DNA of 37,104 bases. It comes from an uncultured bacterium (GTDB taxonomy: Bacteria > Cyanobacteriota > Vampirovibrionia > Gastranaerophilales > Gastranaerophilaceae). Position numbers and translations under genes: made by a program. The notes below the pieces were generated by a model, which saw only the letters and a list, made by a program, of their open reading frames with translations, was not told the DNA's origin and searched no databases. The stretch lies in assembly GCA_900319365.1 (NCBI GenBank), contig ONOE01000017.1, forward strand, positions 3,358 to 40,461, written 5' to 3'. Positions 10,755 through 16,842 of this stretch are shown in pieces; the first letter of the stretch is position 1, and the number at the start of each line of letters is the position of its first letter.

Positions 10755-11495
10755 TTATTTAATGTTATTGTGTTTATATTGTTCTATTAAATTTGTATCA
10801 CCGTTGTCAGATGTGCTTACGATATCTAATTTCTTACCGTCAACTTCAGGTTTAGTCTCTGCAGCTTTGGGAGCATCTTCAACTTTAGCACCTTTTTTAT
10901 CTTTTTTGTCCATCCAGTTTTCAACGTGTTTTGCAAGCGGTGTTGCGATTAAAGGAACGATAACACGTTTACCGATGATTGTAGCTGCTGCGATATCTGC
11001 AACAAATTTGAATAATGATTTTGCACCGTCTTTTACTTTTTCGTAATCTTTATCGATTGTGCCTTTTTTAGGTGCAACTTTGCCGTATAATTTTCTTGCA
11101 AATTCATCACCTCTGTCAACCAACATACGGATTCTTGAAAATGAATTTTCTTTAGCTATTTTATTGAATGATTTTTTAAACAGTTTGTTGAAGATAGGTC
11201 CTGAGTATTTTCTCATTGCAAAGAACATACCGATTTGAGCCAAAATCATCAAAATACCGTTTGTGAGGTCTAATGAAGCAACGAATTTACGTTTTTCATC
11301 GGGGATTCTTTTGTTGTTCAAACTTTGAGCTACATACATTACGCAACCGATACCGTCTTTTAATACGATTGAAGTAACTGTTGCCAAACCCAATGCAGCT
11401 TCTGCATTTTTCTGGAACTTCTTATCAAGAAGTTTCGGAGCTTTTAAGTTGGTAGCCGCACCGTGTACTCTTGCTATTCCGTCTACTAAACCCAT
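10755..11495 (-). CDS. Unrecognised membrane protein, second gene of a coupled pair
   Basis: The 246-residue product has hydrophobic segments near 35-57, 78-95 and 165-188 and a charged Lys/Asp-rich C-terminus. Its start overlaps the stop of the upstream gene (TAATG), and a GGGAGGTGA ribosome site lies in that gene's end, so translation is coupled. The motif VIVPLIATPLAKHVENWMDKK looks like a conserved membrane-exit segment. No enzyme or transporter family is recognised. From memory, proteins of this style are frequent in gut Gastranaerophilales, which is an impression rather than a search result. Confidence 0.65.
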   Translation of the reverse strand: MGLVDGIARVHGAATNLKAPKLLDKKFQKNAEAALGLATVTSIVLKDGIGCVMYVAQSLNNKRIPDEKRKFVASLDLTNGILMILAQIGMFFAMRKYSGPIFNKLFKKSFNKIAKENSFSRIRMLVDRGDEFARKLYGKVAPKKGTIDKDYEKVKDGAKSLFKFVADIAAATIIGKRVIVPLIATPLAKHVENWMDKKDKKGAKVEDAPKAAETKPEVDGKKLDIVSTSDNGDTNLIEQYKHNNIK

Positions 11496-13117
11496 TACTT
11501 ATCACCTCCCACTTTCTGATCTTGAGGAGTTTTCTTTACCCCTGCAAGTTTCGGGAAGAATATTTCCATAAATCTCGGATATACCCAGTTAAGAGCCGTG
11601 CAGGTAATCGGTAATGTGATGAATACGCCGACTGCGATTTTTATGAATTGGCTCCAGCTTGTGTGGCTGTTTTTCATTACTTTCTTACAACCTTTAGCCA
11701 TATCCTTATAGACTTTTTTGATTAAACCTTTTACATCTGTTCCGAAAGTATCGGTACCTTTGAGGATTGATTCTCTGATACTGCCGTCTTCTTTGAATCT
11801 GCATTCATCTGCAACCTTTTTGATAGCTTCAGAAATTTCATCTTTTGTTGTATTTTTTATATCTTTAATTTTCAAGGCTTCCAATCTTGTATCAATCTTT
11901 GAAAGGATTGAATTTCTTTCAAGAATGGCATCCATATATTTGTCTTGATTGAATTTACCGCCGCACATTTTCTTGATGTCGTCTATACGTTCCAGGGTTC
12001 TTTCAACTCTGTGTGCACGCAAATCATCGGGACGGTCTTTGATTTCCTGTAAAATAGTTTTTACATCGGGATTTTTCTCTTTTGCAAGAAGATCGTCTAT
12101 GGTATTTTCTGTTTCTTTGTATAATTTTTTGATTTCGTCAGATCCGTAAGGAGCTTTTCTTGTTTCTTCAATTTTGATGTCTTTGAAAATGTCTCTTAAA
12201 TGAGCTTCATTATCAATAAGAATTTTTGCCCTTTTAACTTTGCCATTGATTTCTTCGGGTTTCTTCATCATATTTCTGGCATCTTTTCTGTATGAATCGA
12301 TTTGTTTGTTCAAAATTTCGGCAACAACATTGTTATCCCAATATTTGCCGCTTGCAAGAGGAATTAAGCCTTCAGCATCGCTTGCGGCATTCTTGCTCAT
12401 AAGTTCTGCAAGATCATCAATCTGTTTATCTCTGATTGCATCAACTCTGTCGTTGAACATTGTATCGTATTTGGTTCTTTTTCTGACCATTTCGCCGTTA
12501 TATTCTTCTTTCGGTCCACGGAAGTAATAAAGCATTGACGGTTTTTTGATATTGTCTTTTTTAAATTCTTTACGAACCATATCTTTAATATATGTGTCTG
12601 TATTAAGGATTGTATGATCCTCATCAAATCTTGCATATTTAGCATATTTAGGATTATTTAAGAATGCATCAAGACCTTTATCGATGTATTTCTGGACACT
12701 CGCCTGGAATAAGATTGCCAAAGCTGCGGAAATCGGTTGACGCATTGCGGTATATTCTTTAGTTTCGGTATTTTTCTTTTTCTCCTCGGGAGTTGCATTC
12801 TTCGGAGCTCTTGCAAACGGGTTGAATGCAATAAATATCGGAGCAACGGTACCGGTACCGATTGCCGTAATGATGATACCGCCGATTTCACCTTTAAGCC
12901 ATTCAAGCTTTTTCATCATGTTTAATACACCTGCTTGAGGCAAACCCTGTGTAATTTTTTTAGTTACCAGATTTGCTCTTGCCGTGTCCGATAAAATTTC
13001 GGTTGCTGCTGATGCTGCGCCTGTAAAATTAGGTTTCCTGCGGTTATTTTTTACCCCGAAACCGTTTGGCATACTATTTTGGTTTACAATGTTTAAATCT
13101 ACTTTCATGCTACCCAT
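11495..13117 (-). CDS. Unrecognised membrane protein with N-terminal NFTG motif and long helical centre
   Basis: This protein has 540 residues. The N-terminus is polar and Asn-rich, with NFTG at 30-33. Hydrophobic segments lie near 78-98, 126-142 and 495-525. In between is a long, highly charged helical region (about 160-480; Lys/Asp/Glu-rich), predicted to form coiled coils. There is no signal peptide. Two in-frame ATGs (13117 and 13108) are possible; neither has a clear ribosome site, and a TATATA element lies 8 bases upstream of the first. It is coupled to the 246-residue membrane protein. A membrane-anchored scaffold is plausible, but the function is unknown. Confidence 0.65.
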   Translation of the reverse strand: MGSMKVDLNIVNQNSMPNGFGVKNNRRKPNFTGAASAATEILSDTARANLVTKKITQGLPQAGVLNMMKKLEWLKGEIGGIIITAIGTGTVAPIFIAFNPFARAPKNATPEEKKKNTETKEYTAMRQPISAALAILFQASVQKYIDKGLDAFLNNPKYAKYARFDEDHTILNTDTYIKDMVRKEFKKDNIKKPSMLYYFRGPKEEYNGEMVRKRTKYDTMFNDRVDAIRDKQIDDLAELMSKNAASDAEGLIPLASGKYWDNNVVAEILNKQIDSYRKDARNMMKKPEEINGKVKRAKILIDNEAHLRDIFKDIKIEETRKAPYGSDEIKKLYKETENTIDDLLAKEKNPDVKTILQEIKDRPDDLRAHRVERTLERIDDIKKMCGGKFNQDKYMDAILERNSILSKIDTRLEALKIKDIKNTTKDEISEAIKKVADECRFKEDGSIRESILKGTDTFGTDVKGLIKKVYKDMAKGCKKVMKNSHTSWSQFIKIAVGVFITLPITCTALNWVYPRFMEIFFPKLAGVKKTPQDQKVGGDK

Positions 13118-14029: not shown

Positions 14030-14124
14030 GAATATATACAGAAAAAGTTTACTCGTGTTTACCCTGAAAAAATCGACAAAATGTCGTGTATGCTGTGCTG
14101 TTTAAAAAAGAGGAGTTTAATGTT

Positions 14125-15027
14125 ATGAAAAATTTTGACAGAGTTGTTAAAATGAAAACATTCTACCACGGAGCCGAAAGAAGAAGTACCCCCAGAGATG
14201 AAAATGATGAATTAAATACCTACATCAGAGAAATTTCATCATATCCCCAATTATCACCCGAACAGGAAAAAGAACTTGCAAAAAGAATTGAAAACGGCGA
14301 CAAAGAAGCCAAGCAGGAACTTATTCGTGCGAATTTAAAACTTGTCGTAACAATTGCCAGAAAAACAATTCACATGTCAGGTTTGCCGTTTGTTGATTTG
14401 ATTCAAGAAGGTAATCTGGGGTTAATGGTTGCCGTTGAAAAATTTAATTATAAATTAGGCTACAAATTTGCAACTTATGCGGGCTGGTGGATTAAACAGG
14501 CTATGTTTAAAGCAATATCAGAACAATCTCATTGCATGAAAATCCCCGTATACATTCAAGAAACCTTGTCCAAATACTCAAAAATCAAATACAGAATGGA
14601 ACAGATTTCAAACAAATCGGTCAAAACGGAAGACATTGCAAAAAAAATGAATATTGCACCCGAAAAAATCGAAATGTTTTTATCCGCATATACAAAAACC
14701 GTATCAATCGAAAACGGAATTGAAAAAGATAACGGCAAAGAATTAAATGTAGCAGATATTTTGGCTGACGAAAAAAGTTCAATCAGCGAAAACGCCGAAT
14801 ATAACAGCTTGAAAAAAGATATTAATAACGTAATTTCAACCTTAAAAGACAGAGAGCAGAAAGTTGTAAAAATGCGCTACGGACTTGGGGATTGCGAAAA
14901 GCACACCCTTGAAGAAATCGGGAACATTTACGGTGTTACAAAAGAATGCATCAGACAAACCGAAATCAGGGCTTTGAAAAAAATGAAATCAACAGGCAGC
15001 GAATTATTGTCATGCTATATTTGTTGA
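14125..15027 (+). CDS. Alternative (group 2-like) sigma-70 family factor
   Basis: About 300 residues from ATG 14125, chosen because GAGGAG lies 9 bases upstream; a GTG at 14086 lacks such a site. It contains region 1.2 (about 27-60), region 2 ([10 protein letters not shown], then [13 protein letters not shown]), region 3 and region 4 with the helix-turn-helix [20 protein letters not shown]. There is no long region 1.1, so it is not the housekeeping factor. At the -10-reading positions Q125 matches E. coli RpoD Q437, but F128 replaces T440, suggesting changed -10 preference. The -35-reading residues are largely kept (K273, E274, R277, Q278). It directs RNA polymerase to a subset of promoters, perhaps including its own and the LysM gene's. 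Confidence 0.9.
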
Positions 15028-15255: not shown

Positions 15256-16842
15256 ATGGGTATCGGAGCAATTCAAGGGAAAGATTATCGCAAGAAGAAC
15301 AGAAGTGCTCAAAAATCGAGAAGAACAAGTTCAAGAACATTGGCTGATGTAAGAAAAGAACATGAACTTGCAAAGAAAGGAAAAACAGGTGCAGCCGCAG
15401 GTAAAACCGCAACACCTAACCTCCCTGCAGTCATAGAACAGCCAAAATATAATTTTAACTTTATGGATATGGTTAAAAAACAATTCGGCATATCAGATAA
15501 TAATTACAACATTCCCGCAACAGGAAAGAAACCTTTAGGGCTTCCCGCACCGAAAGCGGCAACTAATCTTCCTGCAGTCGTAGAAAAGCCGAAATATAAT
15601 TTTAACTTTATGGATATGGTAAAAAATCAATTCGGCATATCAGATAATAATTACAATATTCCGACATCATCAGGGAAGAAAACCTTAGGACTTCCCGCAC
15701 CGTTATCAACAACAGCAGGTTCTGCAACTCAAGGAGCCTCAGGCTCAGTTGCCGGCTCTGCAGCAGGAGCAGGCGCAAGTGCAGGTACAGCAGGTACCCC
15801 GTCAGTATTAAACCCGTTCTCTCATTCGGGTAACAGGGCAGGCGGTGCACAACCGAACGGCGGAGTAAAAGTAATTTCAATACATACAAACGGAGTTAAT
15901 CCTAACGGTGCAACAGGACAGGCTGCATCACATACTCTCGGACTTCCCGCATCGGTATCAGGCGCATCAGGGGCAACAGGTGCAGGCGCAGGAGCAGCCG
16001 GCGGAGCTGCAGAAGCAGCCGAAGCAGCAGGTTCAACTAAACCGTCAGGTTTATGGAAACATATTAAAAGTGCTTTTGCAAAAGGTAAAAGTTTTCTTAA
16101 AACAGGCAAAGGGAAACTTGCTATAGCAGGATTGGCTCTTGCCGCATTAGCAGGCGGTACAATCGCATACTTAAATGACAGATTCGCAGACAGAGGAAAC
16201 GTTCCTCATACAGGCGGCGCATCTTATGTTCCGTTACCCGATGATGAAAATAATGACAGTACGGAAACCGTAGATGACAGCCAAGATTCAACACAAACTC
16301 AAGAAACTGATGAAACTCAGGAAACGGAAACCGCTCCTGCTGACGAAACCCAAGAAACAGATTCAACATCAGATGATACAACAGATACACAAACAGCAGC
16401 CGCAGCAACGGCAACAGGCGTAGCAGCACCCGCTGATTCAAGTGCTCAGGATAATGAAACGGCAGTAGCTTCAGCAGATGCTCAAACTACAACTCCTGCC
16501 GACTCAACAAGCACAGCTCCCGCTGACTCAACAGCTACAGCTCCCGCCGATTCAACAACAACGGCACCCGCTGACTCAACAGGCGTAGCACAAGCACACA
16601 CTCCCGATCCCGATAAATTAAACGGTGATACTTACGATGTAGTTAAAGGAGACTGCGTTTGGAACATTGCAAAAGCTCATTTAAAAGCATTACACAAAGA
16701 CAAAACAGGTTATGAACCGACTGATATTGAAATTTTGAACCATACAAAAGAACTTATGGATAAAAATAATCTCCACTATGAAAATGATAACTGCCACGTT
16801 CTTATCAAACCTGGAGATAAATTAGATATCAAAGCAGCATAA
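15256..16842 (+). CDS. Single-pass membrane protein with duplicated N-terminal unit and C-terminal LysM domain
   Basis: The product has 528 residues. A basic N-terminus (1-45, Arg/Lys-rich) is followed by two near-identical units, 54-99 and 103-149 (NLPAV, PKYNFNFMDMVK, QFGISDNNYNIP, LGLPAP), with a third partial copy at about 226-232. Gly/Ala-rich linkers lead to one membrane helix (about 287-305). An acidic Thr/Asp/Glu/Ser-rich stem with four APADST-type repeats follows, then a LysM-like domain (about 457-528; CVWNIAK, KPGDKLDI). By positive-inside logic the N-terminus is cytosolic and the LysM domain reaches peptidoglycan, so the protein may tether a cytosolic or DNA-bound partner to the wall. 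AAGGGGAA precedes the ATG. Confidence 0.78.
   Translation: MGIGAIQGKDYRKKNRSAQKSRRTSSRTLADVRKEHELAKKGKTGAAAGKTATPNLPAVIEQPKYNFNFMDMVKKQFGISDNNYNIPATGKKPLGLPAPKAATNLPAVVEKPKYNFNFMDMVKNQFGISDNNYNIPTSSGKKTLGLPAPLSTTAGSATQGASGSVAGSAAGAGASAGTAGTPSVLNPFSHSGNRAGGAQPNGGVKVISIHTNGVNPNGATGQAASHTLGLPASVSGASGATGAGAGAAGGAAEAAEAAGSTKPSGLWKHIKSAFAKGKSFLKTGKGKLAIAGLALAALAGGTIAYLNDRFADRGNVPHTGGASYVPLPDDENNDSTETVDDSQDSTQTQETDETQETETAPADETQETDSTSDDTTDTQTAAAATATGVAAPADSSAQDNETAVASADAQTTTPADSTSTAPADSTATAPADSTTTAPADSTGVAQAHTPDPDKLNGDTYDVVKGDCVWNIAKAHLKALHKDKTGYEPTDIEILNHTKELMDKNNLHYENDNCHVLIKPGDKLDIKAA
15418..15702 (+). repeat. Tandem in-gene duplication (two copies of about 140 bases)
   Basis: 15418-15552 and 15565-15702 encode the same approximately 46-residue unit with few substitutions, and long stretches are identical at DNA level. 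The copies are separated by about 12 bases, indicating a fairly recent unequal duplication or selection for identity. Confidence 0.75.

Follow-up and report, generated by a model that had tools for sequence, protein, structure and literature searches.

MapZ and FtsN each combine a cytosolic tail, one transmembrane helix and a wall-binding ectodomain, which is a MapZ extracellular domain or SPOR. For YpbE of B. subtilis, the parts of the published accounts on which we draw describe a cytoplasmic mini-domain, a transmembrane helix, a disordered linker and one C-terminal LysM domain (PMC6335420, PMC12457691). Its cytosolic part of 56 residues docks onto hexameric GpsB, and its LysM part binds peptidoglycan more strongly upon dimerisation (PMC6335420). 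The polar landmark proteins HubP/FimV are characterised by an N-terminal signal peptide ahead of the LysM domain and by a C-terminal TPR/FimV domain. As described in the portion of the source used here, they possess a periplasmic LysM domain, one transmembrane helix and a long cytosolic region. The acidic cytosolic repeats of HubP are imperfect, with differences in number, length and composition among closely related species; the LysM domain of FimV is required for sacculus binding (PMC12918733).

The window analysed here, a stretch of 37,104 nucleotides that forms part of contig 16 of a gastranaerophilacean genome (1.95 Mb, 37 contigs, 99.89% complete), encodes a protein that an earlier note had considered unlike anything familiar. 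In the portions of the sources considered, however, the layout of YpbE is the same (PMC6335420), and HubP/FimV comprise similar domains in reverse order (PMC12918733). Like YpbE, the window protein is predicted to contain a single N-in transmembrane helix, a disordered linker and one C-terminal LysM domain, which makes YpbE the closest architecture, the likeness being one of layout. Its cytosolic part is longer, however (287 versus 56 residues), and contains tandem units, and its host is a diderm. HubP and the window family both vary in repeat number and sequence between close species. The window protein could be described as HubP/FimV turned round, with a C-terminal LysM domain, no signal peptide, a first hydrophobic stretch only at residue 286 and a basic cytosolic region (36 K/R, 12 D/E), whereas theirs is acidic. 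The GpsB-docking motif [ST]RxxR[RK] (SRxxR(R/K)), which YpbE carries close to the membrane, is present in none of the 35 N-domains of the family, and the genome gave no match to DivIVA/GpsB (PF05103) at E<=1e-3 in a search that rang for 7 of 14 controls and could miss a diverged copy; no TPR/FimV model matched the window protein at E<=0.1 (Pfam). Thus, the protein may work like YpbE and HubP/FimV, but it is a member of neither system on the tests made. Its predicted membrane topology and logic are also those of MapZ and FtsN, with LysM in place of their ectodomains, and Pfam returned no MapZ extracellular or SPOR model for it at E 0.1. The layout is therefore already known from other bacteria; what is new is the fast turnover of the cytosolic part.

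The gene is solitary, with a sigma-70 factor gene (14086-15027) on one side and an oppositely directed gene for a 145-aa protein on the other. Inspection by eye revealed a Shine-Dalgarno-like AAGGGG directly 5' of its ATG and hairpins with T runs on both sides. An Omp85, BamA-like gene is present in the genome, which fits a diderm cell. Matches to CFAP77, BAF1 and SipW-type families fell below the cut-off and are taken as composition matches. Elsewhere in the window, two adjacent proteins of 246 and 540 aa with hydrophobic stretches are encoded on the reverse strand (10755-13117), the first beginning MGLVDGIARVHG, and neither has a Pfam match at 0.1. The gene and its parts are as follows:

15256..16842, forward strand: whole gene of the putative signal-anchored LysM protein (P0001), 528 codons (528 aa) without internal stop, from the translation
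15337..15357, forward strand: TLADVRK motif, residues 28-34, inside a predicted helix (29-43); mean pLDDT of block 31-40 is 76
15418..15552, forward strand: repeat unit 1, residues 55-99, NLPAVIEQPKYNFNFMDMVKKQFGISDNNYNIP...GLPAP, from self-comparison and codon alignment
15565..15702, forward strand: repeat unit 2, residues 104-149, from self-comparison and codon alignment
15934..15951, forward strand: TLGLPA, residues 227-232, the sole remnant of a "third unit", from the sequence
16048..16101, forward strand: juxtamembrane basic amphipathic stretch GLWKHIKSAFAKGKSFLK, residues 265-282, with 5 K/R and 0 D/E
16117..16185, forward strand: predicted transmembrane helix (signal anchor), residues 288-310, from hydropathy and the full-length model
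16186..16626, forward strand: acidic Thr/Asp/Ser/Ala-rich stem, residues 311-457, predicted to be disordered
16627..16839, forward strand: LysM domain interrupted by a helical insertion, residues 458-528, from fold prediction, alignment and profile search

The order of parts proposed in the earlier note, with a basic N-side, one helix, an acidic stem and a C-terminal LysM domain containing an inserted helical stretch, is borne out, and its unit boundaries (54-99 and 103-149) are off by one residue at most. Of the partial third unit that it listed, TLGLPA alone recurs. The TLADVRK motif reappears as LADVRK/LADVKK in two relatives (L055 and L020).

Residues 288-310 form the only strong hydrophobic stretch of the 528-aa protein, in agreement with the single membrane helix suggested before. 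The charges around it are asymmetric: the 25 residues ahead of the helix contain 7 K/R and no D/E, the 60 residues behind it 2 K/R and 17 D/E; the stem shows 3 K/R versus 32 D/E in 150 residues. Among the 33 family members whose hydropathy peaks at 1.5 or higher (11 further LysM proteins with lower peaks were left out of this count), K+R exceed D+E on the N-side in 29, the exceptions being L074 and one L079 gene, which are tied, as well as L090 and L018. The N-domain is net basic in all 35 rows of the family table, three of which (L064, L062 and one L058 gene) lie outside the 33-member membrane group. By the positive-inside rule, the N-terminus would reside in the cytosol, as previously assumed for the basic N-side, and the C-terminus in the periplasm; nothing indicates an export of the N-terminus of the window protein. 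The full-length model (16 rows) has a pLDDT of 50.7 and is confident mainly in the LysM part, with the N-domain mostly predicted to be disordered. For the juxtamembrane stretch, we obtained a hydrophobic moment of 0.53, a value reached in 0 of 200 shuffles. An amphipathic helix at this position was dismissed as a family hallmark, given that p<=0.05 was reached in just 8 of 30 members.

The C-terminal domain scores 15.0 bits with Pfam PF01476, under the cut-off of 20.9, and is thus called LysM-like by its fold rather than by its Pfam score, whereas a paralogue from the same genome (L003/L005) scores 21.2 bits and passes. The family alignment retains the G-D-x-x-W-x-I-A signature, in which G, D, W, I and A are the same throughout its 27 rows. 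An AlphaFold model of the LysM part based on these 27 rows (pLDDT 87.9) shows the beta-alpha-alpha-beta arrangement of LysM domains, and the predicted fold matches solved LysM structures, in line with the earlier assignment. The best rows of a VIA-align comparison are LysM domains, with a Z of 6.9 to 4uz2 over 48 residues at 1.9 A; these represent 48 of the 76 model residues, the remainder being the inserted stretch and the ends. None of 111 Foldseek matches reached E<=0.001. A profile search of PDB sequences returned LytE as the best match (2.3e-7), followed by 4uz2 (3.5e-4). The extra length stems from two helices (model residues 16-27 and 38-51) with a loop in between. The domain would bind the GlcNAc-containing glycan of peptidoglycan.

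The two units of the N-domain, 45-46 residues in length, are identical at 39 of 45 aligned residues and, at the DNA level, at 89% over 110 nt. The best off-diagonal self-match of the N-domain scores 176 (z 26), whereas the highest of 60 shuffles reached 55, so that the repeat is not due to chance. The codon alignment contains 31 identical codons, 8 synonymous differences, 6 amino-acid differences and one 1-codon indel. Because of the 8 synonymous differences, the duplication is not fresh, which speaks against the first half of the earlier proposal of "recent duplication or strong selection". Its second half is favoured, since the core NFNFMDMVKxQFGISDNNYNIP differs at only 1 of 22 positions and 6 of the 14 changed codons alter the residue, compared with about 10-11 expected without constraint (one-sided binomial test, p 0.010 for <=6/14 at 0.75, a rough model with few sites). 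Thus, the unit core seems to be under constraint, as far as these few sites can tell. The full-length model places a short helix at each FMDMVK core and at residues 29-43, with low confidence at the units (mean pLDDT of 44-54 in 10-residue blocks around residues 61-80 and 111-130), consistent with the suggestion that the units represent repeated docking motifs. The DNA pattern for [LF]G[LF]PAP occurs twice in the whole genome, in both cases within units 1 and 2, and was discarded as a genome-wide shared motif.

Across the lineage, the repeats vary in number and kind. The window unit has one single counterpart, in genome G063 (NLPAIIDKPKYNY, L036). Strong self-repeats (z >=9.8) of several unrelated kinds were detected in 11 of the 28 N-domains tested, namely those of at least 80 residues from the 33 membrane members, with four shorter ones and one low-complexity case dropped. 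The best spacings are 49 in the window protein, 54 in its own paralogue, 40 in L008 and L046, 81 in L055 and L009, 37 in L060, 52 in L057, 46 in L061, 49 in L066 and 21 in L035, although these 11 cases are not independent, with L008/L009/L055 and likewise L057/L060/L061 being near relatives. At one orthologous UvrD-thioredoxin locus of genomes G063 and G002, UvrD is 94% and thioredoxin 86% identical. Here, identity amounts to 72.5% in the LysM domain and 66.7% in the transmembrane helix and the following residues, compared with 28.7% in the N-domain, where one genome has NLPAIID-type motifs and the other KSAQES repeats of 40 aa. Even so, aligning both N-domains gives a score of 52 (shuffles: mean 14.4, sd 7.8), suggesting that the replacement was partial or left a remnant. 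Between G016 and G002, the LysM domains are 100% and the shared N-domain 92% identical, and the N-domains (222 versus 306 residues) differ by about two 40-aa units. Thus, the cytosolic part turns over fast: related species have exchanged it and duplicated it anew, and the LysM end stays. Separately, the N-domain at the start of the L014 frame (G009) contains a Gly/Ala/Thr tandem array (GAGAGAATG repeated), with masked bases upstream.

The full-length protein matches 21 of 59 relatives' genomes, its own included, at E<=1e-3, all within the genus. The LysM profile, some of whose matches are without a membrane helix, extends further, to 32 of 46 genus genomes at 1e-6 and to 53 of 146 genomes of the order, in 16 of 40 genera, at 1e-8. 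LysM relatives that possess neither a signal peptide nor a membrane helix occur in L021, L062, L072 and L073, and the L072 protein is also found on contig 7 of G007, a member of the window's genus. A second family member in the window genome is a 374-codon frame at a locus that is shared with L068-L071, based on homologous neighbours. A search of the genome_contigs and viral_contigs collections, which may omit the window's own or very near genomes, identified no close full-length relative, neither among 18 stretches retrieved by pattern nor in a second search. A search with the LysM alignment (A1) returned 74 loci (L055-L128), the best of which derive, by record title, mostly from Gastranaerophilales/Melainabacteria or gut bacteria. 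L055-L074, L079 and L090 were analysed; L094 and L096 (ordinary LysM by eye) were left out of the family, and the analysis runs without L075-L078, L080-L089, L091-L093, L095 and L097-L128. The remaining matches, mostly short, ordinary LysM signatures in Clostridia and others, were dropped. Across 22 and four further loci, we did not see the window's neighbour genes beside other family genes; neighbourhoods that do recur contain a pheT-like/106-aa gene, an aldolase-like gene, a DtxR-type regulator or UvrD-thioredoxin, with the aldolase and pheT labels reflecting our own reading of N-termini, without a family search. Literature searches for Melainabacteria/Gastranaerophilales yielded no relevant LysM protein, the single match dealing, by its title, with a mouse antimicrobial peptide.

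We propose, with roughly even confidence for and against, that the protein is a signal-anchored scaffold with a peptidoglycan clamp outside and multivalent docking motifs inside. The parts, repeats, LysM fold, charge asymmetry, family and N-domain turnover are read from sequence or prediction; the topology, glycan binding, unit binding and nature of the partner are what we infer. The single, uncleaved helix would insert the protein into the inner membrane with its N-terminus in the cytosol and its C-terminus in the periplasm, the LysM domain would hold glycan containing N-acetylglucosamine in the peptidoglycan, and the disordered acidic stem would span the gap from membrane to wall. The disordered basic cytosolic part would offer several short helical motifs, here two FMDMVKxQFGISDNNYNIP units, to a cytosolic partner, and a multivalent partner would thereby be pinned to the wall. 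Since dimerisation of the YpbE LysM part improves its binding to peptidoglycan, multivalency inside could strengthen binding outside. Over evolution, the wall clamp would be retained, and the docking part would be copied, change in unit number and be exchanged from species to species, much like the cytoplasmic repeats described for HubP. Several observations count against this scaffold: the helices at the units are of low confidence, Foldseek gave no match at E<=0.001 for the LysM part, the juxtamembrane amphipathic helix is significant in few members, four of 33 members have no N-side charge excess, and the scaffold does not explain the LysM relatives that lack both signal peptide and membrane helix.

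As a rival explanation, the protein could be a passive anchor that just fixes the inner membrane to the wall, with a disordered, basic tail at the membrane surface that has little function and whose repeats grow and decay by slippage. The N-domain is mostly predicted to be disordered, orthologues differ in it almost wholly, its length ranges from 26 to 366 residues in the family, and some members, such as that of L065 with 26 residues, nearly lack it; the rapid change might thus reflect drift in a disordered spacer. However, the two units differ at fewer amino acids than expected and keep 21 of 22 core residues, and the motifs KSA[QE]ES and SGVV.AD are common to some N-domains that differ elsewhere; we regard this explanation as rather unlikely. 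Distinctly less probable in our view is a wall-synthesis adaptor of the YpbE type, whose cytosolic part would dock onto a divisome or elongasome hub and whose LysM domain would place synthases or hydrolases on the wall. It shares its layout with the GpsB-binding protein YpbE, at least as the cited part of that study describes it (PMC6335420), but the GpsB motif is missing from all 35 N-domains, the genome yields no DivIVA/GpsB match at E<=1e-3, and none of the ten proteins from around the gene that were compared with Pfam matched a family of wall synthesis.

The genus also keeps a flagellar-type export apparatus, through which the LysM family, its members without signal peptide or membrane helix included, might leave the cytosol, its variable N-domain lying outside and changing in response to exposure. 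In a related version, membrane LysM members would anchor or plug the apparatus at the wall, helix-less members would be its cargo, and the swapped N-domains would be cargo- or exposure-specific. FHIPEP (FlhA-type) matches are present in all 46 genus genomes. The window genome contains FlhA, FliE, FliF and two rod-type genes, and no flagellin was found in it, the only genome in which we tested for flagellin. Complete flagellar sets were described in just 3 of 9 Gastranaerophilales genomes, according to the part of the study on which we draw (Soo et al. 2014; PMC4040986). Moreover, in both L079 and L090, LysM-TM genes are arranged tail to tail with genes resembling FlgE/F/G, FliK and FliJ (Pfam: L079 only), and helix-less relatives and some membrane members have similar N-termini (MVDGI/MGIDGV), with [DN]G[IVLTYF] matched by 10 of 37 family N-termini and 5 of 311 other ORFs. 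However, this motif was picked after looking at the sequences, several matches are orthologues, two of the five background matches are one gene counted twice, and the window protein does not have it. The start pattern MVDG[IVM] has one match in the window genome, so that nothing here points to such an N-terminal signal being used across the genome. In addition, a Sec signal-anchor fully explains the membrane members, and a disordered region of the cytosol can change fast without being exposed, as HubP illustrates. Export of the family thus appears very improbable, and we give the anchor-and-cargo version the same slight credence.

Several features of the lineage are recorded here in their own right. 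Locus L138 (G000:C11:36000-55999) harbours a FliE, FliF and FlhA cluster in a genome without a flagellin match, and the gene adjoining FliF (L138:9028-10059), where FliG might be expected, gave no FliG match (Pfam). All 46 genus genomes encode, besides FlhA, a protein of ~495 aa whose similarity to FlhA is confined to the C-terminal, cytosolic part (FHIPEP about 309-655). Its representative in the window genome (G000:C20:165053-166069; L132:14622-16100) has a weak match to DUF4177 at the N-terminus. In G027 (73% complete) and G035, the matches do not include the N-terminal sequence of FlhA. A 1680-aa protein (L135:9126-14165, G000:C9) with EF-hand-like, LysM and FHA matches starts with MAVDGIGN and has no signal peptide by eye. 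In L073:2301-4400 (forward strand), L025 and L053, a C-terminal LysM domain is joined to proteins with MORN-type repeats and a stretch that, in our own reading, resembles calpain-like proteases; for L073, Pfam gave no families other than MORN_2 and LysM. Finally, many unrelated proteins of the lineage seem to start with a similar stretch ending in F-x-G/FG (MQVNSVDNTHFGAK, MKILSITN...NISFKG, ...KPNFTG), among them window 11495-13117 (reverse strand), L138:6275-6703, L059:7844-8434, L063:7862-8431, L068:1388-2275, L056:5109-6248 and others.

Collectively, our analysis draws attention to an export apparatus kept across a whole genus and uncovers, in a diderm lineage that neighbours the cyanobacteria, a natural set of proteins that join one wall clamp to a wide variety of cytosolic docking parts. 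If the units bind one hub, the family would represent a ready set of docking motifs, whereas, if they do not, it would neatly illustrate how disordered tails drift while the anchor is conserved.
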